The notes below the pieces were generated by a model. That model saw nothing but the letters and a program-made list of their open reading frames with translations. It was not told the DNA's origin and did not search any database. This document shows positions 30,471 to 60,489 of a DNA stretch of 64,000 nt, in pieces; positions within the stretch are counted from its first letter, which is position 1; every line of letters begins with the position of its first letter. The position numbers and the translations under genes were made by a program. Origin of the DNA: Siderastrea radians (Eukaryota > Cnidaria > Anthozoa > Scleractinia > Rhizangiidae); NCBI GenBank assembly GCA_964017195.1, contig OZ024898.1, forward strand, positions 10,303,130 through 10,367,129, written 5' to 3'.

Positions 30471-33400
30471 ATGAAGCTATCCAAGTTAATATTGCTGTTT
30501 CTTGTTGGTTTCGTGTCAGAAAAGCTGGGACTCGGCATAACTGAGTAAGTATTTTTTAATTTATTTAATCTTTTTTTTTATTTACAAGTCTGTTACTTTA
30601 ATTTGCGCCTAGTCCCTTTCGATGTTCTTACCACATTTTGACGTCTTCTGTGATCTATTACTTAACATACGCACGAAAACATGGAATCTATTTGTTTTAT
30701 ATAATAAAGAAACAAATAAGTTTTTAATGATGACATAATCTATGCGTCTGTCCTCTAATAGATCATAATTGAGAACCAATCGAAATGCGTGCACAATTGA
30801 GCTTATTAAATAAATAGAAAGTGCATATAGCGCTTGAGTCCGTGGGTAACCCCCCAATGCGTGATGGCAGAACTTCCCTACGATCCTGTACAAAATGGTT
30901 ACAACTTAAGAGGCTGGAGATTAAATCCTGAAGTCTGATCATTCAAGTAAAAGCTACTGAGCACTGCTTTGCTGTGGTACTGTCTATTATGTCGTACAAG
31001 ACGGTTCTAACTTTTGGTTGTCAAAAAAAAATCCTAAAGTGTGTTCATTCAAATGAAAGCTACTCAGCAGTACCTTCCTGTGGTGCTTTTTATTATGCTG
31101 TACACAGTGGTTTTAACTTTTGAGTCTGCGGATGAAATCCCAAAGTGTGGCCATTCAAATGAAAGCTACTGAGAAGTACTTTCCAGTGGTCTGTTTATAT
31201 GCTGTACACCGGGTGGTTTAAAGTTTAGACTCTGTGGATTATGTCCCAAAGAGTGACCGTTCGAAAGAAAGCTTAAATGACCAATATTAATACTTGAAAT
31301 CAGTGTGGTGCTGTTTGTTCTTCAATGTATTACAACTGAGTTATTATTGGTTCTTCTTTCAATCCTGAGCACATTTTGGATTGAAAGGTTTAAATGCAGT
31401 TTGGTTGAAATACAAATCACATAAAGTGCTTGTGTCACTGCCATAATCACCAGTTTGGTCTAGAAAGCTCCGAACAATTAACCGTTTCCTGAGAGGACCT
31501 GAATAACATTAGATGATTCTTTTAATCTATTTTAGACCTTTGAATAGCGTTTTTAGGAAATTCATAGGTGGCCTTTAGTCTCAATTTCCCGCTATCAGAC
31601 AGTGGGAATTTACAGTAATCTCTAGCAAATTTCTTAGATTATCAGCGGATATCTTACGTTAATGCAGCTGAAATCAGACTGTTTGACTGGCGGTTTTTTG
31701 TTAAGGAAAGCACCACATTTTGCTTCACCTTTAATCGTTTCCCTTTAATAAAATGGCGGAGAATCTTTTAACTGATCTTTAATAACTTAGCCGTTTTAAT
31801 TTCACACTTTTGATTCAGTCTTTGAATGAAGGAGTTCAACTTGATGGGTATATAGAATTGATTAGTTTGCGGTCAGTCTTTCAAGTGGTATCACAACCCT
31901 GAGTAACACGACCAGTTGACAAATATCACTCGATATGCTTGCAGCCCTCTTGTGCTAATTTAGGGGATGTTTTTTTTTAACTTCCTTATGTTACTCGGGT
32001 CTCAATCTTGAGGAGTCAGAGTGAAGGCTTCTGTTTCTTTAAAGAGGAGGTTAACAGAAAACCGCACACCTCCTACTCTGACAGCCAGTTTAACCCTTTA
32101 AGCCCTTATATTAACTTGCATATTCTCCTTACTGTTCTCCATACATTTCTTATGCTATCATTTGGGAGAATTTCATTCAACATGGAGACATTTCATCTTC
32201 AGTGGTCATTTGCTTTTTTCTCGTGTCCTGAATTTTATCAAGTATTAAATGATAACGTAAGTGTAGCTCTTTTCAGTTTGTATTTGTGTTTACTTTTTTC
32301 GCACAAATTGTTCATTTTCTTCTTCTCACAGGACGCAAAGTGACTCAAAAAACATTCTTGAGCAAAAGGTGTGTTACACAATTAATGAATATTGAAATTA
32401 CATTTAGGAATTCTTAGTAACTCCAGCACTTCACAGTGAAAGGCTAGTCGCTTGGTGTTGGTTTCTCTGGTTTCTGTACGTCTCCACTCCTCAGATTATC
32501 GTCCGCATTACTCCTGACCAATAATAAATACAGTCGTTTTTTACTACAGCTCAAGACAACAAAAACAAAATCAGTGAAAAATATTTATCTTTTCCTAAAG
32601 GTAACAAACTCAAACACTTATCTTCAGTAACAAGTTTTTCAAAATTCGGAATTCAAACTACACCTAAAAATAGTCAGTGACGCCGTTGAGGCGACACTCA
32701 TCAAAATTACGCTTAATCCTATTTGTGAAATCCGATAGTTGCAGTAACCGTTTCTCTGTTTTAAAATACCATGCGGTTTCTCATGTATCTCTGCATGGTA
32801 CTTAAACAATAAGACGCTATTGTCTAAGTGTGCGTTTCTTGGCCACTTCTGGAAGAAAAATTGACAGAACTCATGTTACTAGAATTTTTGGAATGAAAAA
32901 CAACTGCAAGATATTTTGAAAGATCTTTCAACTAGATAAATTCAGATCAATTTTAATATGTGTTCAGGTATCTTAAGGCGTTACGCAACCAAAACCGCGG
33001 TCAGAAATCGTTTTCGATTTGCCCAACCCGAATGTGTAAGGGTGGCTTAAGGACTTTAAGTAATATAACTATTGTCAAGAAGGCATATAACACAGTCTAG
33101 CTATACCGCACGCAACGTATAAGACTTCGTTTCAACAGTTGGCCCTTATAGTTTTTACACGTTCCTTCTAGGCCTATCCATTGTTGTTAAGTATTGTGAA
33201 GGCTGGAGGACATCGCGGACTACAGGAATGTCAAAAACAGTTCAAAAACGAGATCTGGAACTGTACACTGGATAACAAAATCGTGTATAAAGAGCTTCCC
33301 ATCTTTGTTAAAACAACACTGCCATATGGTAAGTGCAAGTCCGCATGCCCATGGTCGCTCTTGCTTAGGTAGCACAGCCGCTAGTGAAACCACCCGGGGG

Positions 33401-34570
33401 GGGGGGGGTACTTGGAGAAGTTTTGGTGAGGGTGTGCCGCTGCGACTCTGAAACGCTTTAAGGGGTTATGTCACGCTATTTTAGAATCTTTAAAAGCTAA
33501 AAGGTGTCTTCGCATCAATTGAATTCCAAAAATAATGGTCTAGAATTGTTATTTAAGACTATCTTACGCCACTGAAACTGATTCCTGTCGTCTGTTGCTA
33601 CCGATGGCAAGGATGGAAATGGATTGCAACTTGAAAAAATTGGGCCAATTTTTTCAAGTTTTGATGCCATGTCTTCAAAAATCACCAAAAAATTTATTAT
33701 GGTTAGCTCTCCCTAATAAAATTTATTTGATATCTTCCTCATAGCTTTACAGGAGCTTTTTGTGTATGAGTAAAGGCAGGCAATGATTTTAGTACAGAAT
33801 TGATCTGAAATAGCAAAGTCCTCGTGACATAGCCCCTTTAACCTATACCAGACCACTTTCAGGTCCTTTTTGCAACCCTATTCTAGACTAGATGCCAAAA
33901 ATCCCTAGCTACCCGTATCCCAGACTAGCTATTTTCGAGCTATTTATCAGGCTCCAGTAATGTTCAAAAGTTGGATAGCGCTATCCACCGGATAAATCAC
34001 TATCAAGTGAATGAGTGTTAGGGAAACCAGTTGCGTTATCCACTGGATAGAGATTTATCCAGAAATATAACCACACAGTGCTTTAAATGGGAAGCCATCT
34101 CTCATTCAACAAACTTGTCACGATTCCAATTAGATTTCTTTTTATATTTCCGAGTTTTTGAAACCCATCTTGGACTTAATTTTTTGCACCACATATTTAT
34201 TTAATTTCCCGGTAATTGCTACCCTATTCTAGACCAAACTTCCTGATTTCTATACCCTATACCCTTCTATGCCCTTCACAACGGCACATACCTATATAGG
34301 TTATATATGGGAGTACCCCCCCCCCCTTCCCGGGTGAAACCACCCTCTATACTAAACATGCAATCCATTTACTATAGTTTCGCATGAAGGCCTGGGGACG
34401 ACGCTGCTAAACGTTTTAAAATTGCGAGGGCATAATGAGAAGCTCGAGACTTCAATATTCATACGATTAATAAGTAATCGTAATATATAGATTTAGCCAA
34501 GCCTAAAAGCGGAACTCCAATTATTATTTATTTATTATTATTTATTTTATTTATTATTATTTTATTTATT

Positions 34571-34614
<44 letters not shown>

Positions 34615-37600
34615 CATTATAATTATTATTTCAAGTGGTACCTGACAGCAATATTATATTTTAGGTAATTATTAGTAAATACACTCTCATCAAATTAGAA
34701 TGTGCATACCTGCCAACCTTATAAAATCAGAAATAGGGACCACCCCCCATGCTCACCCCAGTCCTGGGGTAGTGCTCTGCCCCCACTGCCCCCCAACACT
34801 GAGCAGGATCTAGGTTGCTTTAAGGTTTTTGCATTATTTTTAAAAAATATTGCCTGTACTGTACTGTCTTAGCATTAGAATTCTCAGGTGTTGTTTAATG
34901 GTCTCAAGCACCACATGTATTGCACAAAACGATAGGATGTAGAAAAGTCATTGAAGACCCGTCTTTAACAATCCAGTTCCAAATTGTCTTTTTTTTCTTG
35001 AAAATCGGAATGTCCCGATTGTTTTAGGTTTTGAAACTCAAAAATCGGGACAATTCCCATTAAATGGGGACGGATGGCAGGTATGAACCTGTTTTACAAA
35101 ATTCTAAATAAGCCCCAGTTTTAGGTTGTAAACTTAAATATTGGGCACAATAATTATTTTTGTTCACCTTACCTCGGCCTTTTCTCTGCCACAAGTCTAC
35201 GGTTTAATTCATTTACATTATTGCAGAGTTGTCAAATTGTATAGACAAGGTACTAATTGAAAAATACCTCCACCTCATTCAATGGTTTGACAGATAAGTT
35301 GTGTGGTATAGAGCGAGGAAAAATGCGAGCAATGAGTACCGGTAAAATGTCCTTGACCATTAACTGTAAAACCACTGAATGATATTTATTATTCCACTAC
35401 AATATTTGCCTATCATTTTAAATGATTTATTCAATGAGTGATTTGAAACCGGGACACTACAGTGCAATACGCTTTCTACAGTGCAATGCACTCTCATACT
35501 CTCGTGTATGTGTTTTCTGCTTATATGATAAACTGATGCTATAGTGGAATAATAATGTACCTTGTTTACTCTTATTGATGCCCAGGGACTATTATATTAA
35601 AATCAATCTCTTTAAGTACCCATCAGTCGTGAATCAACCACTCAACCACTTAGTTGATAAATCGGTCAATCAGTCAATAAAAAAATTTGTGACTAACAGT
35701 GTTGCCAACGCGAATAACAAATGGTCCAGTAACCACTTAAGTGACTTTGATGCACAGATTATGACTCACTATGTTACTACCCCTGACTGTGATGGTAGTA
35801 AATCTTGTGGTTTAATTTGTTTTTGGTTTGATCATTAGCCTTTACACTGCATCTAATGTCACCAATGAGCAATGTTACTGATTGCCATAATCTGGTAGCA
35901 AAGAGAAACAAAAAGAAAGCCTCTTCATAAATCATTTCAGGATAGTCTGAAACCTGTCATGACATAATGAACTGACAAGAGGGGATCAGACTGTGGTGAA
36001 TCCATCATTTGAAATAGTTTTCCCTGTCAAGTGAATTCAGTCAGATAACTCCGAATCATCATTCCTGGGAAGTTAGTTGTGTGTGTGCGTGTGTGTGTGT
36101 GGGGGGGGGGGGGGGGGAGTAGGGTTACTCCCAAATAAATGCTACTCGTGTATGGATGTGTTACTGAGGGAACATAAAGTGTCTGTGGATACAGTCAAAC
36201 TAATCACCAACATCAAAATTTGCAAAAAAAAACCAAAACTATAAAACCTTATTTCAAAACTGCTCTTAAAATTTTTTATTTCAATTGATAATGTCTGCCT
36301 GGGAACATACATGTAGCTAAGAGTACAAATTTATTAACCAAATCCTTACAATAAACTGCCATATTTTTTCTGACATCAGGTTGATGGAATAAAAACCTGT
36401 ATGGAAAACAAAGCAGAGTAAATGTTTAATTATCTCAGTTGCCAAAAGTAAGCCCATGGCTTTAGGGAGGTTCTAAGGATATTTGCGCAATTTTTTCTGC
36501 GCATCAATACTGCGCACACAATTCACAACATTGGCATTATGTCATGCCGTGTCATGCACTGAGCATGCACGCTCGCATGAAAAACTACCCCAAATGTTTT
36601 AAGACACTGTAAACTGCCGCTTATAAGCCCTAGGGTGATACAACTTTGTAAAGGGTTTTGGGTGGGCTTATAAATGGAGGGGCTTATATCCGGGGGGGCT
36701 TATAAGCGGAGTAAGAAAAACGTTACGAAATGAGCCACAGTGGTGTTGATCGGAATACATTTTTAATGTACCAGTTTGTTATTAACCTTTGAAATGTCAT
36801 AATAAGTCAAATTCATTTCGATTTTAAAAACAAAATCAAAACTGCAACAACACGAACATAACCGGAACATAACAAAACAGAAGCTCAGAGTTAATCTTTG
36901 CAGTTTTCTGTGAGAGTGCTTAATATTAAGGAAACAGGGAAAACTAGAGGAGGGCTTATATCCGGGGGGGGGGCTTATTACTGGATGTATTTTTTGTTTA
37001 CAGGTGGATGGGCCTATAGCCGGGGGGGGGGCTTGTAAGTAGGCGGGCTTATAAGTGGCAGTTTACAGTATTTGTTTTGAGTTTTAAGCATGTGCATTTA
37101 AACAAGTGGCATTGAAACAATCCAAGTGGACAAAAGGTAAACTGTATTTTTAGAGATGGTTGGTCTCATGTAAATACTTATGCCAGTCTGAATTTCAGAC
37201 TGCACCAGAAATTGCACCAGTCTGAGTATACAGTGCTTTAATGAAATCAGGGTTTTACTGCCGCTGGGTATCTGAGGATGTTGTTAAACATTCTTGAGAG
37301 CTGCTCAACTTTAGTCTGAGGGGGTGTTTGCATGACACCAGTTCATTGTATGCTTTTCATTCTGATACAAGTTCACCCCAGTTCCCTCTTGCTTCTCTGT
37401 ATTTGTTACATGATTACAGCACAAAATCTCATAACAGTGCGAGCCATACCTGGGTGAGTTCATACCGGTATCATGTAAACATGGTGTAACTATTTGATTC
37501 ATTCTGCATTAAGTTAATTAACCATATAGCCATCCAGATAAATCTCACATCACCATGGAAAAAGGATTTTGTAACTTGATGAAGGGAGATTCTTAACTAC

Positions 37601-40600
37601 AGATCTCGCATTGTTCCTAGGGGATTTTTGTGGATGGTATTCTGTCATACGCTGTTTTCAGCATTTCGTGCTGCTATATGCTGCTGAATTCCACAACTGA
37701 ACATTGCGCGTGCATAGCTACTGCCAGTCCCCAACCGCACATTAAAAAGAAAATCAGTAAAACTAAGAGGAAACTAGTAAAGTTCCGATTTTTTGGCGAA
37801 TCGCCCCACCCTTCTTTAGAATCCGAAGCATGCAATTACTGTTTTTACAAAGAATAGAAGAAGTACAGCACAAAAATGTATAAAGATATGTGCTTGGCCA
37901 TCATAACTTTTATATTCATAATAAAGCAAATTTCTAGAAACTGTTGCTTCAAATTTTGCATCCTCTAAATCTATATATTTGAATGATTTTAAAACTGTTT
38001 AATTATGTTTGACTGGGTTCAGAAATTGAATGGAATCAAACACAGCTGTATATATAGGCATATTTTTGGTTAATAATTATTGTGTTCAATTACCGAACCC
38101 AAATTAACCCAATGACTGCATTCAATCCAGTTCAATTTACTGAACAGTTAGATACATGTACGTAAGCTGGGCTAATTATATAACTGATATCTTCCACGTA
38201 CCTTAACTTCACTGTAAGAAAATGCTGCATCACTGATCACTGCTGGCATATATGCCTAGAACGGAAAAAAAGGATCAGTGAAAAAAAAACACAAAACAAA
38301 ACAAATTCAGGGCTAAAAATTGGCAGTCGCCCAGTCGCCAGTGGCGATTTAAAACTGACCATGGCCACTAAAAGTCAAGGCTTAAATGCCTGATAGAGGA
38401 CTGCAAATAAAAGTTACACTGTAGTTACAATTCAAATAAATTAGACTTTCATTGGAGCATCTCTGTTTTATTTCCCCTCCTCAACTCTAAGTTCATCAAT
38501 TGAAGAAAATTTTCAGTTCTTGGAGTGCAAATTCGTGAGAGCGAGCGCCTGGCAAATTACTTTCATCCTTAAAATAATATTAACTTTATTATTTTTCTTT
38601 TGACAACATCAAATAACTAATATTGTATGTAACATACATTATTAAAGCATTCAGAATGCAATTTTTGACCAATGTGACATTAATGAACAGAAAGAATGAG
38701 TGAACAGAATAGTAATTATACTCAATGTCAATTATTAAGGGAGTCGTCATTCACTTTGCTAGCATAATGTCACTTCCAGCTTTGAAACGTTGTTGCCGAA
38801 GCTATACTTTGCTTTACTTTTGTGATCCACCTGATTCATGAGACGTACAAGTGCCTACTGTTGGAAATTTTTGCATCCACCCCTGAAAGTGTTCTTCTTT
38901 CCAGCTTTTGTGGAATCCTGACAAATGATTAATAAATCATCGCCTGAACCCCTCATTTGCAGCTATCCAAACTCTTTTAACCATTTGTCTAAAAAGTGGT
39001 TATGTCTTCCACCCTTTGCACGGTTCATTGCTATAATACAGGTAAGGTAAAGCACTTGAATATCGATCGATTGAATGAGCAACAAAATGGCAGGACCTCA
39101 TTTAAGTTTACTGGATGTTCAATCATCTCCAGTCTCCTTTGCTTAACTCAGTAAAAAGCCAGTTGCAATTAATCAAACATGTTCTAACTAATCCCAGCAG
39201 ACAATTGTCAGTTAAACAAGCCCGATTGCCTTTAGGAAGCAAAAACACATCAGTACAAATATGTCAATTGCATAAAAAAAATCCTTTGCTTACATCTGGA
39301 TCCCCCCGCCCCCCTTGGGAATACAGTGGTTTTTGAGAAAACCAAACAATGCATGCAGTATTTATTTGAACTTTCTAAAACATGAACATTCCATTATAAG
39401 TGACAAATAGTAAGAAGCACTTTCCACAATGCAGTGCTTTTATTAATAAGATCGAAAAAAATCGAGAAAAAAATGAGATCGAAAAAAATGGCAAATTGCA
39501 GTCGCCTTCTGAACTAATGCATGGTTCAATTTTGCCTGTTACCATCCCCCCACCGGGCAACCCCGGGGACAAGTCCAGCCCTCGAGTCCGGGGGTGGGGA
39601 ATTGTTTGAAGTGGTCTTGTCCTGGGGGTAGAAGAGTGGGGCAAATCGAAAATAACTTCTTGTTGTTCTTGTAAAGTACGTCACTTCTCAGTTGATATGA
39701 CGGCCCCAGACCGCGTGGAGAAGATTGCCTATTTCCAGTGAAAATCTCTAGTATTTGTAGCAGACTGTTTAGAGAAGAATAATATCTCAAAATTAAAATC
39801 TGTGTTTGACGGTATGTTTATCATAAATTGTTGGACGAATGTGCATTTGATGCGTACTCGAATGAATGGTGGTTGTCACAAACAAAGAAATATTTCTTCA
39901 GTGTGTTTATATTTATAATAAGACGACTTAAATAGACTCTATATAAAAACGGATGCACAGCTTTATGTTAACCAGAGATCTCAGTCCAGTGTTCTTATGA
40001 AACAAGCTAAGAAAAACTCCCTTAAATGCTGCCATCAATTTGTTCATGGGCCTCTTGTGCGTATGCGCTATATTTAGAATAAAACGTGGCGAAGAAAATT
40101 TCTTTACTTGCCAGCTGTATGCCAGTGCAGGTAGAGTTTTTTCTTCAGTTTTCTGTTCATGTTTTTATTATATTATGCATGTAGTGTCCTTCGTTCAATA
40201 AACTCTAGAAAAGCGTTTAAGTTCTTGTCAAAACGTCTGGTTTTGCTATTGTACGGAAATCAATATCGTCATTTAGGTTTTGTACACAAAACAAGGTATT
40301 TGTGGTCGATGAGGAGTCCCGGTGTTGGGGAATCGTCTCTTTCTGTGTGCCCGGGGGTGGGGAATAGACTGCCAAGTGAGAAAAAAAAATGCAAATCCCC
40401 GGGGGTAGGCCCGGGAAGGAGGGGATGGTAACAGGTAGAATTGAACCATGCATAATATTGAGTGATAAACAAAATTAATTCACACATAAGCTTAACTTGA
40501 GCTTAAGTGAAGCCAAATAAAATTATTGAAATTCAAGCAAACAATTCATAAGTGATAAACAAAATTAATTCACACATAAGCTTAAGTCTTGAGCTTAAGT

Positions 40601-43600
40601 GAAGCCCAATAAAATTATTGAAATTCAAGCAAACAATTCATAAGTGATAAACACAATTAATTCACACATAAGCTTAAGTCTTGAGCTTAAGTGAAGCCCA
40701 ATAAAATTATTGAAATTCAAGCAAACAATTCATAAGTGATAAACACAATTAATTCACACATAAGCTTATTGGTCTTGAGCTTAAGTGAAGCCAAATAAAA
40801 TTATTGAAATTCAAGCAAACAATTCAGAAATCAGAATAAGGGTCAAAAAATATTTAAGACCTACTTCAGTAGATACATAAGCTTAAATGAGGATGTGCTT
40901 TTTCATCGATTCGTTACTTGCATGGATTTTGGTAGGGGTTTTGCCGAGGATATTGTAAACAATGACTGGATTCAGAGTTAAAAAGAACGAGGCATATATC
41001 AATTATGTCCTGTTTTGTTATTCTTTTGTTTAGTCAATGAGTTAACATCTTGACGATTCGCGTTGGTACTTGTTTTCGCCTTTTACTTCACTGCATGCTT
41101 TCATAAGCTGTTTTCTCCTTTGCCTGGCTACACTTTGCTCCGTGAAAACAAAACACACTGGTATTCTTCAAAGCTGAGAAAAGCGGGTTATCGTCGTAAA
41201 AGTAAATAACTGGAAATATTATATTTATGACCAAAGCCAAGACAAGTTTCTCTTTGTTCGAGATAACGGGGAATTGCAAATAAGCGAGTTGAGCCAAGAC
41301 AAATTTCTCTTTGTTCGAGATAACGGGGAATTGGAAATGAGCCAGTTGAGTTGAGATAAATAAAAGCGAATTTCCCATACCGTAATATTCTGTGAAATGA
41401 TTGAAAAATTCCGAGAAACTCACCCGGGAAACTCAGCAAGCAGGTCTTCACGCTGGTTCAGTTAAAGCATCGGGCCAAAGCAATCCATATTTCTCCTCTC
41501 AATAAAGACATCCATATTCCAGTTAATAGGCATTTAGGACCGGCAGTCGAGTTTCTTTAGCCTATCTTTTCATTTCTAACGTTGAAAAGGTATCGTGTCC
41601 TCGTTCTCAGCCACGCGCGCGGCCAGATTGCGAAATCTTGTAACATGATACCATCACCTTTGCACTACCCGCTCAAATTGCGTTCCCTTTTTTCGTTTTG
41701 TTTTGGTTTGTTTCTTTTCCTCTTTTTTTCACTTTCTATGAGTAGTATTCTGAAATGACATACCGTAAAAGGTGCGGTTTAAGTTTTGACGAAAAGTTCA
41801 CTTTTGTAACAGTGCATTTTTTTTTTGTTAAACAAACTTTGCTAAAGCACGGAGATTGATTTTAACTGAACACCTTGTAACTTCATGCTGTCCTTGGCGT
41901 AAATTTCTTCTCCGTTCTCGATTACGACTTCTTTCCCCTTGATGATCTGTAGAATAAAATACAAAAACGTAGACGTAAATTATTCGGTGGTACAAAATTA
42001 TTTCCAATCACAAATAGATAAAAATCAAGAAAACTGTACCCGACATGTTTACAGTTCTCTGTTGGCGTCTCTCAGTTTTCCTCTGGCGTTGTTCTTCAGT
42101 ACCGTTCCGTCTTATTTCTAGTTGCCTTTATCTCTCTGCTGTACTGTTCCTTCGTCTTTTTCGTTTTCGTTTCCGCTCTGCTTGACCGGGTGCTTGACGC
42201 TGTTCTTCAGTGGCGTTTCTCCTTCTTTTCCGTTGTTGTTCTCTTTCTCCGTCTCTTTTCCTTCGTCTCTGCTCTTCCAGCGAAAATTGCCTCATGTAAG
42301 AATGTCATGAAATGCGACGTACGTACGTATGTATGTATGTATGTACGGCGCACGCGCCCGCGAGCCATTCCGCTTGCCATGACCATAAAAAATTACCAGC
42401 ACGCCTTTAAGTATGACTATGGGGCTCCACTCCCGCGGCCTACGGCCGCGGAGGAGTTCCGCTATGATTGCTAGTCTAAGAACAATTAAGGACTTACGCT
42501 ACTCTAGGTTATTACCAGGGTTATATTCTGTTCGTGGCACTGGCTACGTTACTCGTGATATTTGAAAATTCTTACTGATAGAATTTTCAAATATCACTCA
42601 TAGTGTAACTCACACTCAAACGATTAAATATTCTAATATGTTAACACGATAAGTAAAGGGTCAAGATAAGGTTGACAACTAACGCATAACGTAAATTGAA
42701 CTTGGTACCTTAAAAGGCTTCCAGACATTTATAAATTTCAATGTTATAATAAATTAACACCTTAACTTATAACGACTAAAATGCTGTAAAAAGACGATTC
42801 GGGATTCAACAGCTGTTGACGGTAACTTAATTGTCACTTTCTTGCAGCTACTCGCGAAACAGCGTTTATTCACGCCATCAGTACTGCTGCTATAATTCAC
42901 GAGATCTTAGTCCAGTGCAGACTGAACAGAATTCCCGGGTGTGGTTGTGCTGGGATAAAGAAACAAAGAGAAGGTAATGGCGATTGGCAGTGGGGCGGCT
43001 GCAGTGACAACATCAGGTTTGGTGAGAAGGAGACGAGACGCTTTATCCACAAACTAGAAGGAGGAAATGGTGCCAGAACGGCTTTCAACTTGCATAACAA
43101 TGAAGTAGGAAGAAAGGTGACTTTGGCTACTTTGCCAGCTTAGTATAAAATGACATATTAACATGATGTTAAATATTCTTAGTAACTCGACCTTCTGTTT
43201 TGTAACCTAGCCTTGGCTTAGAGACTTACCCTTTCCTTAAAAACGTGGCATATTGCTTGGTATCCAAGCCTTTGTTGGGAATCATGTCCTGTTTACAGGC
43301 AAGTGTTCTCAAGTGCGTTACAATGTAACGGACTGAACGTGGGTGTGAGGGAATTTCGGGCTGAAACTGCGTAATTGGCCGAAGTTATCTTTGTCCCTAG
43401 TCTCGAGCCATCTGTTTTAAGTTGCCATCGCTCTGCAGCATGTTTAGAAGCCTTATGGTAATTCAAGTTCACTGATTAAGCTCCTGACTTGGAAACTAAC
43501 CTGGAAAATAGCCCTCCTTTTTTTTCCTCACCCATGTGCATCCCAAAACTTTATGCACGCCTATTATAGACACACGTATATTAAAGAGCGAACTTAAGTT

Positions 43601-44242
43601 TAAGTCTACAAGAACAGATGTCACTGCAAATTTAAGCAATACTAGAAAAGGCGATTTCTACTTATGACTTTTACTACCGCCCCCTTTGCTTCGATCTTTA
43701 TACAGAGGCCCTAAAAGATTACGTTTTATTTATTATAGGTTATTCGATTAAGTCTTAAGAGAGAATGCAAGTGTCATGGCGTGACCGGTAGTTGTAATCT
43801 GAAAACTTGTTGGAGACAGCTGCAGCCTCTTGACGTCATCGGCTCAAAGCTCAAGCTGAAATACCGTAACGCGTTGCGAGTGCAATTCGTTAACAACAAG
43901 CTACAAGAGGAAGTAAAGAACAAAGTCAGTTCAACAAGGATGGATAAAAAGCTGGTTTACCTTGAAGCTTCTCCAGACTATTGCAAACGAAACAACATTA
44001 GAGGCTCGCCAGGAATGCTGGGAAGAACATGCAGCAGTGATGACGTCACCACGAATAGATGCAAATCTCTTTGTCACGCATGTAGTCTCAAATCTGTAAC
44101 AGTGGAACACTACAAGCAAATCAAGTGCCGATGTCAATTTGTTTGGTGTTGTAGTGTTAAATGCGATTTATGCACAAGAAAGTTTTCGGAAACAACTTGC
44201 ATCTTGAACGACAAAAAGCACAAACGTACTTCTAGAAAATGA
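30471..44242 (+). CDS. Wnt8-like: Wnt8-like secreted signalling protein (Wnt-A), five exons
   Basis: Secreted glycoprotein ligand of Frizzled/LRP receptors, acting in axial patterning. Exons: 30471-30544, 32332-32368, 33172-33328, 42848-43116 and 43739-44242. All have GT-AG borders and phases 2/0/1/0 that fit, giving 346 codons. Exon 1 encodes a signal peptide (MKLSKLILLFLVGFVS). Exon 3 has RGLQECQKQFKNEIWNC, the Wnt entry motif. Exon 4 has ATRETAFIHAIS, WQWGGCSDNIRFGE and LHNNEVGR. Exon 5 has KCHGVTGSCNLKTCW, LVYLEASPDYC and the Cys-rich end. The spacing and YLEASPDYC point to the Wnt8 subfamily. The canonical CHGxSGSC has Thr where the palmitoleoylated Ser normally lies. The 9.5-kb third intron is filled with mobile elements. 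Exon 2 (37 nt) is the least certain part, supported by splice sites and phase only. Confidence 0.9.
30890..31330 (+). repeat. Dispersed ~115-bp repeat array in Wnt-A intron 1
   Basis: Three to four units with CATTCAAATGAAAGCTACT, TTATTATGCTGTACA and GAGTCTGCGGATGAAATCC. Intron 1 (30545-32331) otherwise holds nothing recognisable. Confidence 0.8.
33393..34334. mobile_element. 942-bp TIR element in Wnt-A intron 3, 8-bp target duplication
   Basis: Starts CCCGGGG(G)nTACT and ends AGTACC...CCTTCCCGGG. TGAAACCA stands on both sides (33385-33392 and 34335-34342). An 8-bp duplication is the hAT hallmark, so a hAT-type non-autonomous element is likely. It lies 64 bases after the exon 3 donor. The interior has no coding frame. 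Confidence 0.8.
34505..34633. repeat. TTA/TTTA microsatellite
   Basis: About 110 bases of TTATTTATTTA and (ATT)n. It follows TAGATTTAGCCAAGCCTAAAAGCG (about 34488-34511), a segment that also starts the repeat at 53975. Confidence 0.9.
34705..35085. mobile_element. TIR element (381 bp) in Wnt-A intron 3
   Basis: CATACCTGCCAACC at left and GGATGGCAGGTATG at right are inverted. Inner arms pair less well (AATAGGGAC against TCGGGACAATTCCC). It is noncoding. Confidence 0.65.
35086..36605. other. Wnt-A intron 3 interior, no gene seen
   Basis: Contains a GT/G run at about 36081-36118. A segment with TTGCGCAATTTTTTCTGCGCATCAATACTGCGC (36482-36520) resembles the left part of the TTAA element at 48302-48932. 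An open frame at 35575-35838 has no known domain. Confidence 0.4.
36606..37069. mobile_element. TIR element rich in GGGCTTATA repeats
   Basis: ACTGTAAACTGCCGCTTATAAGCC at left is inverted as GGCTTATAAGTGGCAGTTTACAGT at right. Inside, GGGCTTATA(A/T)(G/C)CGG blocks recur at least five times with G runs. Confidence 0.75.
37070..39516. other. Wnt-A intron 3 interior, no gene seen
   Basis: AT-rich, with no recognisable coding or inverted-repeat element. Confidence 0.35.
39517..40453. mobile_element. TIR element (~937 bp) in Wnt-A intron 3
   Basis: ATGCATGGTTCAATTTTGCC (39517 onward), continuing TGTTACCATCCCC, is matched by its inverse ending at 40453 (GGGGATGGTAACAGG...TTGAACCATGCAT). The inner flanks carry CCCGGGGGTGGGGAA(T) blocks in both halves. 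Confidence 0.75.
40462..40826. repeat. ~90-bp tandem repeat, four copies
   Basis: Four head-to-tail copies beginning GTGATAAACA(A/C)AATTAATTC at about 40462, 40550, 40643 and 40735. Each continues through AAGCTTAAGT...GAGCTTAAGTGAAGCC and AAATTCAAGCAAACAATTCA. Differences are few, so the array is young. Confidence 0.9.
41236..41349. repeat. 57-bp tandem duplication
   Basis: GCCAAGACAAGTTTCTCTTT...GGGGAATTGCAAAT is repeated once, 57 bases on, with four to five differences. Confidence 0.85.
42319..42478. repeat. GTAC/GTAT run with GC-rich palindrome
   Basis: GTACGTACGTATGTATGT microsatellite, then CCGCGGCCTACGGCCGCGG near 42434 and TTCCGCTATGATTGC. A related arrangement (GGACGGACGG..., GCTCCGCTGACGCGCTAGCG, CTCCGCTATAATTGC) lies at 54695-54840, so both are probably right ends of one repeat family. 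Confidence 0.5.
42546..42608. repeat. Short perfect-stem hairpin before Wnt-A exon 4
   Basis: GATATTTGAAAATTCT and AGAATTTTCAAATATC pair perfectly over 16 bases around a 7-base loop. The outer flanks GTTACTC and TAGTGTAAC extend the pairing. It lies about 240 bases upstream of exon 4. It could be a tiny foldback element or a structured intronic RNA segment. Confidence 0.8.
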
Positions 44243-49768: not shown

Positions 49769-50633
49769 TTACAGTGGATCACGTTCACAAGGTTTGGAGT
49801 CCTAATCAAAATTCCGTATGTGCAGCCTTAACAAAGGATGTTTGTGACACGTACTGCCTCAAATTAATTCTAGTCCAGCTTTTATTATTCAAATGTTACA
49901 GGATATAGTTAGCTAAAAGTAATTTTGAATAGAGATATCGAATGGCAAAAATTCGGTACGAAACAGGAGGAAATTACTGAAAAAAAAAAAAACAGAAGAG
50001 AGGTCATTTCCAGGTAACTACCAGTTAAAAGTTTCCTTGAAGTCAAAACCAAAAATATATTTGTTATTTGCGAAAAACCAATTTAGGCATACTTTGTTTA
50101 AAAGAAAAGTTTCCGGGAAAACCTTTCTAAAAGAACATCTGCTTCGTACTGATCGATTCATCACAAAAGAAAACACCATTTGATCAATGTAAGATCAGTG
50201 ACAAGCTAAAGGTAGTCCTAAAAGAATAAATCATCGGATTTTTACTAGTTCCCTGTATTAATCTGTAAACCACAAATAAAACTTTCCGATCCACATATTT
50301 TCCAACACGTCCAACAAGAAATCAACCCAAGAATCCAACGACAAAAGAAATGCAAGTGCGAGTCTTTCATTGCATGCAAATTTGTTGTTTAACAGTTATC
50401 ACTTCAAGCACGAACATATCTACTAATCAATTAATTAAGCCTTTATCAATTTGCTATGCTGAATCAAGTTTCTTACCGCGGACTTGAAATCACAGAATCT
50501 TATCGTTGATTACCTAGTTTGATTACAATAAAACTAACATTGATGAATTAACTTTTAATCTGAACTAAAATCGAAGAAATCATTTACACTGTAATTTCAC
50601 TTTTTGTTAGTTCCCACTGCCACAGTGTACGAG

Positions 50634-53600
50634 TTACAAGTTGTTACAAAATACCTTCTTGGACACATGTTTTTTACATTTGCAACACCTTACAAACTTA
50701 TACTTACACTCGACTTGTTTGTAATGTTCCACTGTTTTAGGCTTCAGTTTACAAGACCTGCAAAGATTAACGAACGATCTGCAGTTGCTGTTGGTCGCAT
50801 CATCGCTTGAGCAAGTCATTCCCAGCATTCCCGGGAAGCCCATGGTGCCGTTTCGTACGCAGTTGTCTAGGAAGGGGTCGAGGTAAACAAGTCTCGTATC
50901 TTCGCTTAAGATGACTTTAAACTGGTTGCCTATTTGTTCATAAAGTTTGTTGTCCACGAACCAAACTCGCACGGCATTGTGGTATTTATGCTTCAGCTCT
51001 GCTCCAATCTTTTCAAATGACGCCGGCAGAATCTTCCAGCACTTTTTCAAGCCACAGGCTGTGTTCAAACCAAAACACTTACACCAGTAAACTAAGCTTG
51101 TTCCAACAACCTAGACAAACCAAATTAGTAAGAAAACACTTGATGCATTTTATATCACGTACTATAACTGAAATAGAATCACTTAAGGACGGTGCCTCCT
51201 TTTGTTACTGAGCATACCATCTGCACATCGCCATTGGTTTGATCCGAAAAACTTGGGCTTCTTGAGGACGGTGCCTACTTATACAAACGTATTTTGTGAC
51301 GGTTTGTGACATTCCGGGGAAAATCAGGTCTTAGCAAGGGCTGTTGGAATGGAAAAAGGAAATTGAGGGTAACTACGCATTTTGCAGAGATCATTGAGCT
51401 CAAGAGAGAAAATGCGATACATTGTTCTGTATTTAAAAGCTTTTTTTTTTAGAATTATGGTTGTTTAATTATCTCTGAAAAATTCATGGTTACCCACAAT
51501 TTTATTTTTGGATTCCAGCCCTTGCTGAGATACGTTTTTTCCCCCATTGTCATGGCGTGTGCTTAGAAATACCTCTGTATGAGGAGGCACCGTCCTTAAA
51601 CTGTTCTGATAAATGTGTAGATTAGTTATCCGAAATGAGCCACTATTCCAGTGGCTTATTCCATTTGTTTATTAGTTTGATGACTGACTTTGTTAGGTGA
51701 TAAACTTCTATCGTTTGAGAGAATATGTCCATCTTTATCCCTTCCTTGTTCGGTTAAATTTGCTGCCATACCAACAAGGTAGTTGACCCGCTGTCAAAAA
51801 ATGTAAAAATGGCGTGTTCCCACAAATTAGCATAAACTAATTAGGTAAGACGTTTCTGAGACTGATGTGACAGACTAGGAATACTAAATAGCATGCCGTT
51901 TTCAGTAAAACTTTATCTGGTCGCTATCGGGGAAAAAAGACTTAATGAGGACCCACGATGTTCAGTAACCATGGTTACCTCTCTTCCCACTTTGTTGTTG
52001 TGCAGATTAACCGCCGTTCGAGCGTCGTTTCCTTTTTCCAAGTTTTCAAAAAAGCGTCTCGTCTCGTACTCTCCAAACTCGATGTTATCACCACAGCCGG
52101 CGGCAGTCCCACCTCTCTTTGACCACTCATATGGTAACTTCCGCCTTTTACACTTGCATCCCTGTATGTTGTGTCGGCATTTAAGCGTCAGCTCGTAAGT
52201 GATGGCGGCAGCACTGATTGCATGGATGAATGCAGTCTCTTTTGTGGCTAAAAGAAAACGGAAAATTTTTAAGGGGACTACACTCGGAGCTATAATAATT
52301 GGCAAGGGAAAACGAATCCAGATGAGTTAAAAGTTACACATAAACAGAATAATGCATGTAATATTCCATTAGTCTTCAGCTGACCATTATAATTAGATGT
52401 CTCAGTGATTTTAGTATCCTCATGCCTTATAAACCCTTACCCTAATCCTTATTAGATGTGGGAATCTTCAGTAGAAGTACCTAAAACACTGATAACAGAT
52501 AGTACTGATGCAAGGTTGTCTAGCAAAGCGTCAAACCAGGAGCCCACTTATGGGCTCCAGACAAAAGGTAACTTTTTCAGACGAGAGTAAATATATAAAT
52601 TAGTCATGCATAACAGCTGGTGCAATAATTCCCAGTATCCAAGAACTGTACATCGAAAAGTAAATAAACAACGTTCAGATTAATGGTCTATAAACCAATT
52701 TTATCACTTTAGGTCTATTCGCTTTTGTAAAGTTTACAGTATTTTACCTCCGTTGCCAGCGTAACAGAAAAAAAGAAGGTTTACCGCAGGGAAGTGTAGG
52801 CTACGAACACGCTCCTTAGAGAAGAACATGGCAAAAAAAAAAAACCTCGGCGAGGAAGGAGCCTGTCTGAGAGGACTTAAAAAAGTGAGGAAGCTTAATG
52901 CTTAATCATTCTCACAAACGTCTTGATTATGGTAAACTTTATTAGTGGATAAAAATAAGCCCAAGATTAACCTCAACACCAGAACATGTACAGAAGTAAA
53001 ACAGCTAATCCAAACATCCTATTCGTTTAGCAATCTTACCAAAGGGAAGTGTTGTGTTAACAAAGATGGCTAACTCTGGATCGACAAATCGGTTTACAAA
53101 TGAACAGTTCCATAGCGAACTATCGTTAAACTGTTTCTGGCATTCCTCTATTCCACGGCGGGCTCCTAATTTCACGATGCTCCGTAGAGGAGGATAACCC
53201 AGCTGTAAAGTAAGAGACGACTAATTAATGTTCTATTCCCGAAAGTAAAGACAATTTAAGTAGTATTCTAAGCCAGGAACCAATATTGTAGACTGATTAA
53301 GGGTTTAAAATAAATTTTTGCTTTAAAAATTTTTTGCCTTTTTTTTTTGGCTTGCTTTAGCTCAGATCCTACGCCCGAGTAGAAACGAATAAACTGTGCA
53401 AGTCAACGGTAAAAAAGAGGAAGTATTGAGATTTATTCTTGGTCAAATTATTGAGGAGAAAAAAGAGTGCTCGCTGTCTAGTAAGAGGATAAATGATTAC
53501 CCTAAATTGTGGTTATTAAATTGCCATTTGTAGTATAAACGCGTGCTGGATCTACTAAGGTTGTTATTAAACTACTTATCATTGGCTAAAATTGACCACT

Positions 53601-55405
53601 TGGACCTGTTTAAAGCTTCGAGTTCATGTCAGGTTTGACTGAAAACATCGCGTTATGTGCTGTAAATATTGCAGTGTCTAGAAAGATGTGATGAATGTGG
53701 TCTTAGTTTTACCCTCTTGTTTGACCTGTGTAATGTGCGTCGAAATGCAGAATTAAACATGTACCGACATCCTTTGGTCTTCTCAAATGGGCCAAAAAGA
53801 ACTTAGCAAGTATAGACTAAACGTATCGTTGCGATTTTGTACACAGCTTACGAATGATAACAAAATTAACGGTAACTGTTCGAACTTATAGCGTCCGCGA
53901 CTAGGCCCAGATACCGTGGCCTGAACGTCATCAACAACGCTGTGGCCGAAATACATGGATTATCAGGAGTAATATATAGATTTAGCCAAGCCTAAAAGCG
54001 TTTTTGTTTTTTGTTTTGTTTTTTTGTTTTGTTTTTGCTGGCAGTTATTAATTTGTGAAAATACTCTCATTCAAGTCGTTAAATAAAAAATAAAAAACAA
54101 AAAAACAAAGAAAAAAAAAGATAAAAAATTCCTGCTCCCGCTGAGTGTCGAACCCGCCTCGTCGGCGTAACATGCCGGTGACTAGTCCACTAGGCCATGG
54201 GCGTTTAACGTTAGTTTGGAAGTTAATTTTAATACTTATTTCTTTCTTCGTGAGAAGCTGCCTATCAGCATGAAAATGCTGGTGTTTTTCCTGGCAAAAT
54301 GTGTTCGAAACGCCGTAAAAACCATGGTTGGTGACAGAAGAAACCAAAAAGCACTAACTCTGCTACATTTGGCGTCGAAACCGTTGCGAAAAGCTTTGAA
54401 CTCAAGCGGTGTGCCGACCGAGTTTGAACAGAACCGACGAGGCAAATTTGAACTTTTTGCCTGAACTTTATCGCCTAATTTCTTTCGCCTAAACTGAACT
54501 TTTCCCCTTCCACCAAAAAGACAACTGAGTGTTCTTTTGAACTTTTTTTTTCCATTAACAAATTTGTTTTTGAATTTTGTTGTCTTTGCTTGTTTTGTTA
54601 CAACGCGGGTCAACGTGCGATTTCGCGCCAAAAACACACGGGATTCAGCACAGGGTTATATCCAGTGTATGAAGTGTATTGGTAGCCCTGTGGTGCGGAC
54701 GGACGGACGAACGGATGTACGGACGGGCGGTCACGTGACTATTACGTCACTACCAAATTTTTTTGGCTTGATAGGTTACCAAATTTCCTTAGCAATGGAG
54801 CTCCGCTGACGCGCTAGCGCGCTGGCTCCGCTATAATTGCAGCTGTACACACCAGAAACGTTATTTTATACCATGAATCACAAACAGCGTGACATACCTG
54901 TTTTGTTTCGTTGGTCCTATGAAGAAAACGATAAAAAGACAATCCGTGAGGCATTTAGTCTGCTGTGGTCGGGTTAATTATATAATAAGCTAAGGCAAAA
55001 AGGGGAGGGGGGGATTGAAAAATATCAGTCATTTCGTAAAAGAAGGCCTTTCATCTGTCCAAGGTTACTAGACTGTACATTCAGAAATTAAGAGCGCGCT
55101 CTAGAAATCTAGAAATAGAAAATGATGCTCGGTTGGTGAGATCAAGTGCAGTTCTTAAAATCCATATCACCTGACTTATCATTTGCTGGCTTTTGTCTCG
55201 TCAAAGAAATTGCCAAGGAGAGTCACGTTTGAATTCAGAAGACTATTTATATGTTCTGAGATGAAATAGCAATAAATTACCTTGTAAGGTCGAATGGGTG
55301 AGACGGCAGAGATGTCCCGCACAATTCCACAAGCTGAGGGGACATCAAGTCAACAAGAATCACTAAAATCGCAACTGATAACTTCATCTTCAGGAACGAT
55401 AACAT
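50634..55405 (-). CDS. Wnt: Divergent Wnt paralogue (Wnt-B), five exons
   Basis: Minus-strand exons: 55405/55387-55281, 54916-54898 (19 nt), 53202-53040, 52247-51979 and 51110-50634. All have GT-AG borders and the same phases as Wnt-A (2/0/1/0). The sum is 344 codons from the ATG at 55387, or 350 from an in-frame ATG at 55405, with no stop or shift. Exon 1 gives a signal peptide (MKLSVAILVILVDLMS). Later exons have RRGIEECQKQFNDSSLWNC, ATKETAFIHAIS, GCGDNIEFGE, LHNNKVGRE and FPGMLGMTC. It has departed from the family at key sites: the WGGCSDN motif reads AAGCGDN, and the lipid-attachment hairpin reads CFGLNTAC. So it is an intact secreted Wnt-like protein probably unable to be acylated normally. 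Exon 4 is equal in length to that of Wnt-A (269 nt). Confidence 0.88.
51187..51595. mobile_element. TTAA-flanked MITE in Wnt-B last intron
   Basis: GGACGGTGCCTCC at left and GGAGGCACCGTCC at right are perfect inverted ends. TTAA stands on both sides (51183-51186 and 51596-51599). An internal GAGGACGGTGCCTAC repeats the left terminus near 51263. Likely piggyBac/Kolobok type by target site. Confidence 0.9.
53969..54840. mobile_element. Composite repeat with tRNA-derived segment in Wnt-B intron 1/2
   Basis: Starts TATATAGATTTAGCCAAGCCTAAAAGCG (also at 34483). It contains a tRNA-like stretch (54130-54203, minus), a Phe/Leu-rich low-complexity frame, GGACGGACGGACG runs at 54698-54722, and ends GCTCCGCTATAATTGC. 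The borders are approximate. Confidence 0.55.
54130..54203 (-). ncRNA. tRNA-derived segment (degenerate)
   Basis: Minus strand reads TGGCCTAGTGGACTAG (A-box-like) and GGGTTCGACAC (B-box-like). A stem CGGC-ATGTTAC-GCCG places GTT in the anticodon position. The acceptor ends do not pair, so it is not a functional tRNA. Confidence 0.5.
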
Positions 55406-57544: not shown

Positions 57545-58310
57545 TCTTTTAAGCCTTTATCAGTTTGCTTCCCTGCACCAAGAATTTACCGATTTTAAAT
57601 CACAGAATCAGACCTGACATTGATGAATTAACTTTTATTCTGAATCAAAATCAATTTAACTTTTAGTTGTTTTTCACTGCCACTGTGTACGAGTTACAGG
57701 TTGTTACGAAATACATTCCACGGCAAGTTTTGTTACATTTAGTTTTGCAAACAAACTTACACTCACACTTCACCTGTTTGTAATGTTTCACTTTTACAGG
57801 CCTCAGTTTACAAGAACTACACAGATTAATAAAATATTTGCAGTTGCTGTTGGTGGTGTCATCGCTAGTGCAACTTATTCCAAGCATTCCCGGGAAGCCC
57901 ATGGTGTCGTTTCGCACGCAGAAGTCTGGAAAGGAGTCGAGATAAACGAGCCTCGTGTCATAGTTTGAGATGACTCTAAACTGGTTGCCGATTCGCTCAT
58001 AAAGATTGTTGTCCACGAACCACACTCGCACAGCACTGTGGTAACTCTGTTTCAGCTCTGCTGCAATTTCTTCAAATGGCGCCAGTATCTTCCAGCACTT
58101 TTTCGCGGCACAGCTGCTCCAGCCATAACACCTACACCAGTGAACTAGACTTGTTCCAACAACCTAGAGAAATCGTCTCGTCTGGTATTGTCCAAACTCC
58201 ACGTTATCACCACAGCCGGCGTCAATCCCACCTCTCTTTGACCACGCATATGGCAACTTGTGTTTTTTACACTTGCATCCTCGTATGTTATGTCGGCACT
58301 TAATCGTCAG

Positions 58311-58608
58311 GGATGGCGCAGTGGTGAGAGCGCTCGCCTCCCACCAATGTGGCCCGGGTTCGACTCCTGGTCCCGGTGTCATATGTGGGTTGAGTTTGTT
58401 GTTGGTTCTCGTCCTTGCTCCGAGAGGTTTTTCTCCGGGTGCTCCGGTTTTCCCCTCTCCTCAAAAACCAACACATCCAAATTCCAATTCGATCTTGGAG
58501 GTGTCCCCAATTAGCATTCTTTGCTAGATACCGTTGACACCTAAATAAAGTGATTTATTTATTTATTTTATTTATTTTTTTTATTTATTTATTTTTATTA
58601 TTATTATG
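58311..58608 (+). mobile_element. tRNA-derived SINE inside Wnt-C exon 4
   Basis: The head has an A box (TGGCGCAGTGGTGAGAGCG) and B box (GGTTCGACTCC) of a Ser/Leu-like tRNA. The body has GAGAGGTTTTTCTCCGGGTG, CTCCGGTTTTCCCCTCTCC and CAAAAACCAAC, a central-domain pattern shared by many marine-invertebrate SINEs. The tail is AAATAAAGTGATTTATTTATT and a long ATTT run. In Wnt-B the same exon continues without interruption (52190-52205), which fixes the insertion point. Confidence 0.85.
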
Positions 58609-58653
58609 AAAGTGATGGCGGCAATACTGATAGCGTGGATGAATGCAGTTTCT

Positions 58654-58700
58654 TAATAATAATAATAATAATAATAATTAAATAAATGAATAAATAAATG
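58654..58700. repeat. AAT/AAATG microsatellite
   Basis: (AAT)n followed by AAATAAATGAATAAATG, at the presumed acceptor of Wnt-C exon 4. Confidence 0.8.
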
Positions 58701-60489
58701 AATAAAAACGAAGGGAAAAAGGATAGGTATTTAGTGTGCCACCAGACAAACAGTAACTTTTTGCAGACGAAAGTAACCATAATTGGACATGCGTGACAGC
58801 CGGTGTAATAATCATCAGTTGCCACGAATTGCAAAGTTCAGTTCAAAGTTCAGATTAACACGCTATAAAGCATTTTATCGACTTAGCTCTCATCACTTTT
58901 GTAAACATTATTTTCTCTTTAGCGCTGTTGCCAGTTACACAGATGTTTAGTGAAGCCTCACGACTCCTTAGACAAGAGTAGAGTGAAAGAAAAAAAAATG
59001 TGAGCAAAGAGCCTATCTGCTAAAAAAGTGAGAACTCCACCAGAACATGTACAGAAGTAAAACAGCTAATCCAAACATCCTATTTTTAGCAATCTTACCA
59101 AAGGGAAGTGTTGCGTTAACAAAGATGGGTAACTCTGAATCGACGAGTTAGTTTCCAAATGCACAGTTCCATAACGAGCTATCGTTAAACTGCTTTCGAC
59201 ATTCCTCTACTCCACGGCGAGCTCCTAATTTCACGATGCTCCGTAGAGGGGGATAACCCAGCTGTAAATTGGAAGTATTAAAGAGACAAGTAAATGCTCT
59301 ATTCCCGAAAGTAACAATAATTTGTGTAGTATTGTGGCGATAAGGAACCAATATGGTGCCCTACAGTTAACGTTTCACCTCTTAGACGGCTACAAATAAA
59401 CGAATACAAATTCTTTTTTGAAAGACTTAATTCTCGCCACATTTCTTTAAACACATTCCCTGTCCATTGATAACAATAGCTTGCAACAACCAAATTGATT
59501 CACCCAACATTGAGGGGAAGGAAAAGCCAAGCATAAAAACAGGTGATTTGCGACATTGCGAGAAGTGTTCCAACGCAATTTGCCCAATGTGAAGAAAAAT
59601 GTAGCTCCGTACAGTATATACGCGCAGTGGATTTGCCGGCGCATCGCGGGTTTCTATTAGGCGCGTTCGGATATTTTTTTCTTTTGGAATCTCCTGACAA
59701 AAAAGGGAAACATACGCGCCAGCGAGGGAATAAAGACGTCTTGAAGTTCCTTAGGCCCTACGCGCGAGTAAAACTGTATAGTGGGGGGGGGGGGTGGGGG
59801 GGGGGACAGGGAGGTTTAAACCTCCCGCTTCCCGTACCCTTTAATCCTGGTTCCCGCCCTGTATTTGTTGCCGCACGCCTCTTTGCTTTTTTTTTTATTT
59901 CAAAATATTGCGCAACTGATCAGCCCCAGCAATACACGAATAGAGGAGTTTGTATGGAAAATATAACGCGCGCTAAAAATGTGTTTAATGTGAAATAAAG
60001 TTGCCTTTTTAACTCGCCTCTGGCTCATTCATGCGTTTATCAGTGTTTTTACAGTGATTTAGTCCTCGAAGGATCAATATAACACCTCTCTGAGCGAGAC
60101 GCTTTTCCACCCTGAGAGGCAAAGAGAGTTGGATTACTGTGTTTGAAAGCCAAAAATAGTGAGCTTGGGCTACCTGTGATATTATCTGTCAAGGGTTACT
60201 GCACATCAGAAATTCTGAGCGCGCTATAGAAATAGAAAATGGTGTTTTGTTCAGTAAGCTCAAGTGAACTTCTGACTTACTTGGGTTTGTCCGGCTTCAA
60301 AAAAACTGCTAAGGAGAGTCACGTTTGACTTGATTATCACTGGCATATGTTCAAGGAATGCAGCTGCACAGTAAACGTACTTGTAAGCTCGAAGGAGTGA
60401 GATGGCCCGCACAAGTCTACCAGCTGCAGGGACATCAAATCAACAAGAATCACTAAAATCACAACTGATAACTTCATCTTCAGGAGCGA

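Follow-up and report, generated by a model that had tools for sequence, protein, structure and literature searches.

The subject of this text is Wnt-B, a gene lying in a window of 64,000 nucleotides from the coral Siderastrea radians (contig OZ024898.1, positions 10,303,130 to 10,367,129 of the forward strand; G000:C12:10303130-10367129 of a genome of 805 Mb), the product of which has lost the serine that Porcupine acylates in canonical Wnt proteins. It is rather probable, in our judgement, that Wnt-B belongs to a coral clade of the Wnt8 subfamily, present here in six copies (B, C, D1, D2, E and K, the last on contig C1), which dispenses with this serine and would be exported as soluble, unlipidated protein, the window copy being damaged and copy K intact. 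Loss of the site, membership of the clade, past purifying selection and the occurrence of spliced counterparts among public sequences are directly supported. As judged from sequence, the finding would be best framed at the level of the clade, and best carried by K.

The DNA sequence served to rebuild the gene model, the parts of which in the window are as follows.

55281..55405, minus strand: Wnt-B exon 1, signal-peptide-like
54898..54916, minus strand: Wnt-B exon 2, a 19-nt micro-exon with AG/GT borders
53040..53202, minus strand: Wnt-B exon 3
51979..52247, minus strand: Wnt-B exon 4, matching Wnt8 best among solved structures
52084..52101, minus strand: AGCGDN, a CGDN variant with the preceding WxWGG lost, inside exon 4, which reads AAGCGDN
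50634..51110, minus strand: Wnt-B exon 5 as open here, with the acyl hairpin and the C-terminal cysteine-rich domain
51036..51083, minus strand: Wnt-B acyl hairpin CKCFGLNTACGLKKCW, four cysteines retained, palmitoleoylation Ser changed to Ala (51057-51059)
50597..50678, minus strand: Wnt-B C-terminal tail, the frame departing from that of its relatives within 50661-50678

The initial annotation of this DNA had described five clean exons with matching phases, the 19-nt exon included, and this is borne out by AG/GT at the intron borders, phases 2/0/1/0 and a single stop-free frame of 350 amino acids. An inner ATG at 55387 (MKLS...) is the start common to relatives, the JGI proteins P0002 and P0006 both beginning at MKLS. 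The micro-exon is found again in D1, E and K, and its residues TNKTK are present in spliced P0002 and P0006.

The acyl hairpin is where Wnt-B parts company with the lipidated family. In place of the serine of the motif CHGxSGSC, which marks the canonical lipidated Wnt, both Wnt-B and P0001 carry an alanine; with Ala in CKCFGLNTACGLKKCW and Ser in canonical paralogues, the loss of lipid attachment that had been proposed for Wnt-B is upheld, and the missing palmitoleoylation site places it, in this respect, in the class of WntD. A 53-row alignment of chosen rows contains the canonical GSC in none of its 19 clade rows, as against all 34 of the others. The hairpin has also loosened: its amino acid p-distance among divergent copies is 0.454 against 0.236 in the remainder of the protein, with variable length and four cysteines retained, and among canonical copies 0.073 against 0.309. 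Such loosening would be the expected outcome of release from recognition by Porcupine. That acylation persists at a threonine or serine of the altered hairpin is a very improbable reading: Thr does precede the cysteine in K, D1, P0003, P0018 and P0021, and Ser in C, P0006, P0015 and P0020, but the position is Ala in B, P0001, E, P0002 and the Oculina proteins P0014 and P0016, no window-type copy in this genome preserves the CHG-x-[ST]-G context, and the hairpin is not of constant length. In P0015, P0018 and P0020, with the hairpin CICYG[LIV]NR[ST]C, the Ser or Thr before Cys now lies inside an N-x-S/T glycosylation sequon. The second motif put forward in the annotation, AAGCGDN for GGCSDN, was correctly read; it does not survive as a sign of loss, and we rejected CGDN as such a mark, for it is frequent in canonical rows (9/34, among them all three Wnt5 rows). 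The unusual feature of exon 4 is the loss of the tryptophan-rich stretch WxWGG ahead of CGDN.

That Wnt-B is a Wnt is clear from its match to the Pfam family wnt (PF00110; 182.1 bits against a cut-off of 20.3, E 2.3e-53) and from the Wnt fold, for which XWnt8 stands first in the ranking, Wnt7a and Wnt3 following about one Z unit lower. Exon 4 is nearest to Wnt8 among the solved structures. In a 30-row tree, where the other subfamilies are Wnt1, 2b, 4, 5 and 16 only, 20 of the rows, namely coral and vertebrate Wnt8, fall on one side of a branch with support 100/98. The cysteine framework, counted over 22 family columns, is complete in K (22), and amounts to 21 in P0001, 20 in B (one of them by chance, in a shifted frame), 18 in D1 and 17 in E.

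A profile search for relatives gave 438 matches, of which 120 were listed. Four JGI contigs have counterparts in this genome: P0001 corresponds to B, P0002 to E (90.5% over 315), P0003 to K and P0006 to C. These contigs measure 1.3-1.6 kb and the counterpart exons are spread here over about 2.4-4.4 kb, so that contigs this short, coding across a multi-exon span, are of spliced RNA origin or, much less likely, four retrocopies. The site is missing too in P0005 (Logan, 64%; CHGLASNC) and in P0014 (CHGVNTAC) and P0016 (CHGFNTAC) of Oculina patagonica. Trees were built first on 53 hand-chosen rows, then on 51 (P0048 and P0050 omitted), proteins that were fused or incomplete (P0004, P0009, P0023 and P0024 among them) being set aside. 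In the 53-row tree all 19 rows with an altered hairpin make one clade (100/98). When the hairpin and CSDN columns are removed, the window-type group together with P0005 is recovered at 100/99 and the Oculina-type group at 100/98.

Searches of the genome with exons 5, 4 and 1 gave the inventory of copies; as Wnt-B has five sisters in it, the idea that it is the sole paralogue was rejected. One of them, K, lies on another chromosome and is complete: it has all five exons including the micro-exon, AG/GT borders, an intact tail and the hairpin CKCLGFNTCGLRKCF, and it differs from spliced P0003 at one of 305 residues over exons 3 to 5; from its sequence it appears a better candidate than Wnt-B for a working lipid-free Wnt. 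The others invite the view that the clade consists of decaying, functionless Wnt8 duplicates, of which B and K would be the least decayed and the transcripts mere by-products. We regard this as unlikely, but it is not without arguments: C, D1 and D2 are disabled, D1 and D2 by a stop where exon 4 ends; E, while open in frame, is near neutral and has lost 5/22 family cysteines; B is frameshifted; and the hairpin of the clade diverges more than the remainder where that of canonical copies diverges far less. Against it stand the completeness of the five-exon frame of K, its full set of cysteines and its near identity to P0003, as well as P0002, the counterpart of E, which is open over 356 amino acids. 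Wnt-C and an array of canonical copies are placed as follows.

57663..60489, minus strand: Wnt-C, same clade, exon 3 interrupted by a stop and exon 4 by an insertion, hairpin CRCYGWSSCAAKKCW
G000:C9:36030000-36109200, strand not stated: canonical Wnt8-like tandem array (L039-L046), 80 kb, exon 4 and exon 5 matches

The frame of P0006, the public spliced counterpart of Wnt-C, is open through exon 4. Matches to exon 4, like those to exon 5, count 11 copies in the array; in some of these there are stops, or exon 5 is broken.

A further objection to decay comes from the rates of substitution. A purpose-written branch codon model was fitted to 10 of 15 assembled copies over 317 codons (D2, G38, N39, N44 and N45 left out, C taken without exon 4, stops treated as gaps and B cut ahead of its frame change). 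In the first fit, where the K class contained one inner branch too, the ratio of non-synonymous to synonymous rates (dN/dS, omega) was 0.19 for canonical copies, 0.56 for the stem, 0.27 for B, 0.49 for K, 0.90 for E, 0.62 for D1 and 0.62 for C; twice the log-likelihood difference from omega 1 (2dlnL) was 19.7 for B, 6.6 for K, 5.6 for the stem, 3.2 for D1, 2.5 for C and 0.1 for E. Over four topologies the terminal branch of B kept an omega of 0.23-0.27 (2dlnL 18.3-21.9), as an average over the whole branch, K one of 0.42-0.49 (5.0-6.6) and E one of 0.86-0.90. A value near 1, which the annotation had named as the mark of an early-stage pseudogene, is therefore seen for E and not for the B terminal branch. 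Pairwise NG86 estimates for B against K agree (dS 0.36, dN 0.10, ratio 0.28), and in neutral simulations at the length of the B branch a 290-codon frame stayed free of stops in about 0.7% of runs, which makes survival of the frame improbable under neutrality. A neutral pseudogene over the whole B branch was accordingly rejected as the main account of the gene, the end of the window copy being nonetheless damaged; whole-branch averages are compatible with constraint on B having perhaps ended recently. For the loop we make no claim of positive selection: hairpin-only omegas, obtained on 15 codons with fixed branch lengths, were 1.22 for the stem plus internal branches and 1.66 for E, D1 and C, neither significantly above 1 (2dlnL 0.37 and 3.36). 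Likelihood ratios computed exon by exon, which also came from fixed lengths, were set aside.

We must now consider the end of the protein. Near position 50,670 of the window Wnt-B leaves the family frame, as seen in a DNA alignment with ten other exon 5 copies and by comparison with P0001. It terminates as CCKCKKHVSKKVFCNNL followed by the stop, P0001 as CCNCKKMCPRRYFVTTCNSYTVAVGTNKK; the out-of-frame tail has 11 residues where P0001 has 23, and spans two family cysteine columns, one of them filled by chance. The DNA 3' of the change, as far as 50597, still resembles the family tail, but in another frame. The word intact, which the annotation had applied to Wnt-B, must thus be withdrawn: there are 0 internal stops, and yet the last 11 residues are shifted relative to the ten other copies and P0001, so that the frame is disabled in the manner of a pseudogene. 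Upstream of the change Wnt-B and P0001 are 97.5% identical over 278 residues, with seven differences (numbered here from exon 3). Wnt-B is the altered one at residue 45 (Pro in 25/33 canonical and 8/8 clade rows), 225 (Pro in 33/33 canonical rows) and 227 (Tyr or Phe in 33/33 canonical rows), and probably, from the sequences, at 185; at 23 it is P0001 that is altered; 103 and 203 are further differences, assigned to neither side. The Wnt-B changes where P0001 keeps the family residue are Pro to Ala, Pro to Leu and Tyr/Phe to Asn. It could be argued that the window copy works and that its frameshift is an assembly error or a single allele, since P0001, 95% identical to it, carries the family tail in frame; the substitutions of the same copy at conserved sites, at which P0001 agrees with the family, make this quite improbable. 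More plausibly the window copy was damaged recently at its C-terminus, and is probably losing its function in this genome: because the C-terminal finger is altered, Wnt-B here probably no longer acts as an unlipidated ligand. The functional, re-purposed ligand or decoy of the annotation is in this way divided, its lineage being not neutral (omega 0.23-0.27, a spliced counterpart) and its representative in the window probably no longer in working order. Agonist and decoy may both be kept as candidate functions for a re-purposed role.

Several observations weigh against a lipid-free Wnt8 clade of single origin and lasting function, and it is fair to gather them here. When solved structures are searched with exon 5 by itself, Wnt5a (1.2e-13) comes slightly ahead of Wnt8a (4.5e-11), and the Wnt8 grouping depends on long branches. 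Omega over the whole clade is 0.55; the tail of Wnt-B is frameshifted and its conserved positions altered; and the stops of C, D1 and D2, the insertion in C and the near-neutral, cysteine-poor E argue that decay is frequent within the clade. Without the hairpin columns, support for the union of the window-type and Oculina-type groups falls to 85/58. The Oculina-type proteins P0015 and P0020 keep Ser before Cys (P0018 and P0021 have Thr), and the minimum number of changes between Ser and non-Ser on the tree is 4, so that the serine may have been lost in one old event or in a few parallel ones. Nor are unusual hairpins confined to the clade: among the 132 proteins listed, other examples are SATC in a domain of Owenia P0049 and SVSC in Pocillopora P0111.

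The clade that we favour, unlipidated and of the Wnt8 subfamily, may work as follows. Its proteins, the serine lost, have by this reading kept a signal peptide, the Wnt fold and the scaffold of hairpin cysteines; a protein of K type would be exported as a soluble unlipidated Wnt8, without Porcupine or Wntless, and, unable to fill the lipid groove of Frizzled, could act as a diffusible ligand or as an antagonist. A broader and more doubtful proposal, which we advance tentatively, would have reef corals evolve a lipid-free Wnt8 class before their major lineages split, independent of Porcupine and Wntless, variable in its loop, duplicated, and supplying long-range ligands or antagonists, as a second invention beside WntD.

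A few features of these loci lie apart from the argument. One is found in the last intron of Wnt-B.

51183..51599, no strand: sequence feature, inverted repeat resembling a miniature inverted-repeat transposable element

The inverted ends of this element are perfect over 18 nt. By eye only, and with no confirmation by a tool, the exon 4 insertion of Wnt-C resembles a tRNA-derived short interspersed nuclear element; a search for tRNA genes with ARAGORN over 50-61 kb of the window found none. Near G000:C12 10411813 and 10412276 (L032) exon 4 of D1 is present in two copies, and D1 and D2, 78 kb apart, are almost identical in coding sequence, as would follow from a recent segmental duplication or a duplicate in the assembly. 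At 33175-44242 of the window, on the plus strand, lies Wnt-A, canonical Wnt8-like with the acylation site present, from which P0039 differs at 1/306 residues.

What is known of unlipidated Wnts is drawn here from passages of the sources cited. Wnts analysed so far are mono-palmitoleoylated, with the exception of WntD, which has no lipid modification and is secreted without Evi/Wls, and lipid-independent functions are still to be understood, according to such a passage of a review (PMC10112924). WntD, its palmitoleoylation site missing, is described as running as a monomer, unaffected by the cysteine-rich domain of Fzd8 (PMC6179999). Serine-to-alanine zebrafish Wnt8a is reported to show reduced secretion and to fail in a reporter assay, some activity in vivo being left (PMC3888416). 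The coral Fimbriaphyllia ancora is credited with 20 possible Wnt genes, two labelled Wnt8 being among ten with tissue-specific expression, and lipid sites are not mentioned in the passages of that account drawn on here (PMC11269664); titles and abstract openings among the open-licence papers listed contain no report of coral Wnts without a lipid site. A coral Wnt8 clade without the site, one copy of it complete and four matched by spliced counterparts, would be natural material for the study of how an unlipidated Wnt acts, is exported and binds.

We may finally set the clade beside its known relatives. With canonical Wnt8 (XWnt8, human WNT8A) it shares the best sequence match of exon 4, the top fold rank and, to a degree that varies between copies, the cysteine framework, whereas the clade of Wnt-B has no CHG-V-[ST]-G-S-C, a hairpin variable in sequence and length, and no WxWGG. 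The canonical Wnt8-like genes of corals (those of this genome, and the Wnt-8b-like genes of Porites, Oculina and Desmophyllum) are homologous to it over exons 3 to 5, those of this genome being 44-63% identical to Wnt-B per exon; they differ in that nearly all keep CHG[VI]TGSC (L022 has CHGVTRSC), with an omega of 0.19 where fitted. The comparison with Drosophila WntD made in the annotation proves apt, as WntD is described as the fly orthologue of Wnt8 (PMC3003278) and the coral family groups with vertebrate Wnt8: both are of Wnt8 type and both lack the lipidation site. Because the serine is still present in other Wnt8-like copies of corals, the coral and fly losses look independent, in which case the Wnt8 site would have been lost at least twice, in flies and in corals. 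The two differ in number, a fly gene standing on one side, and on the other six coral copies in one genome and their relatives.
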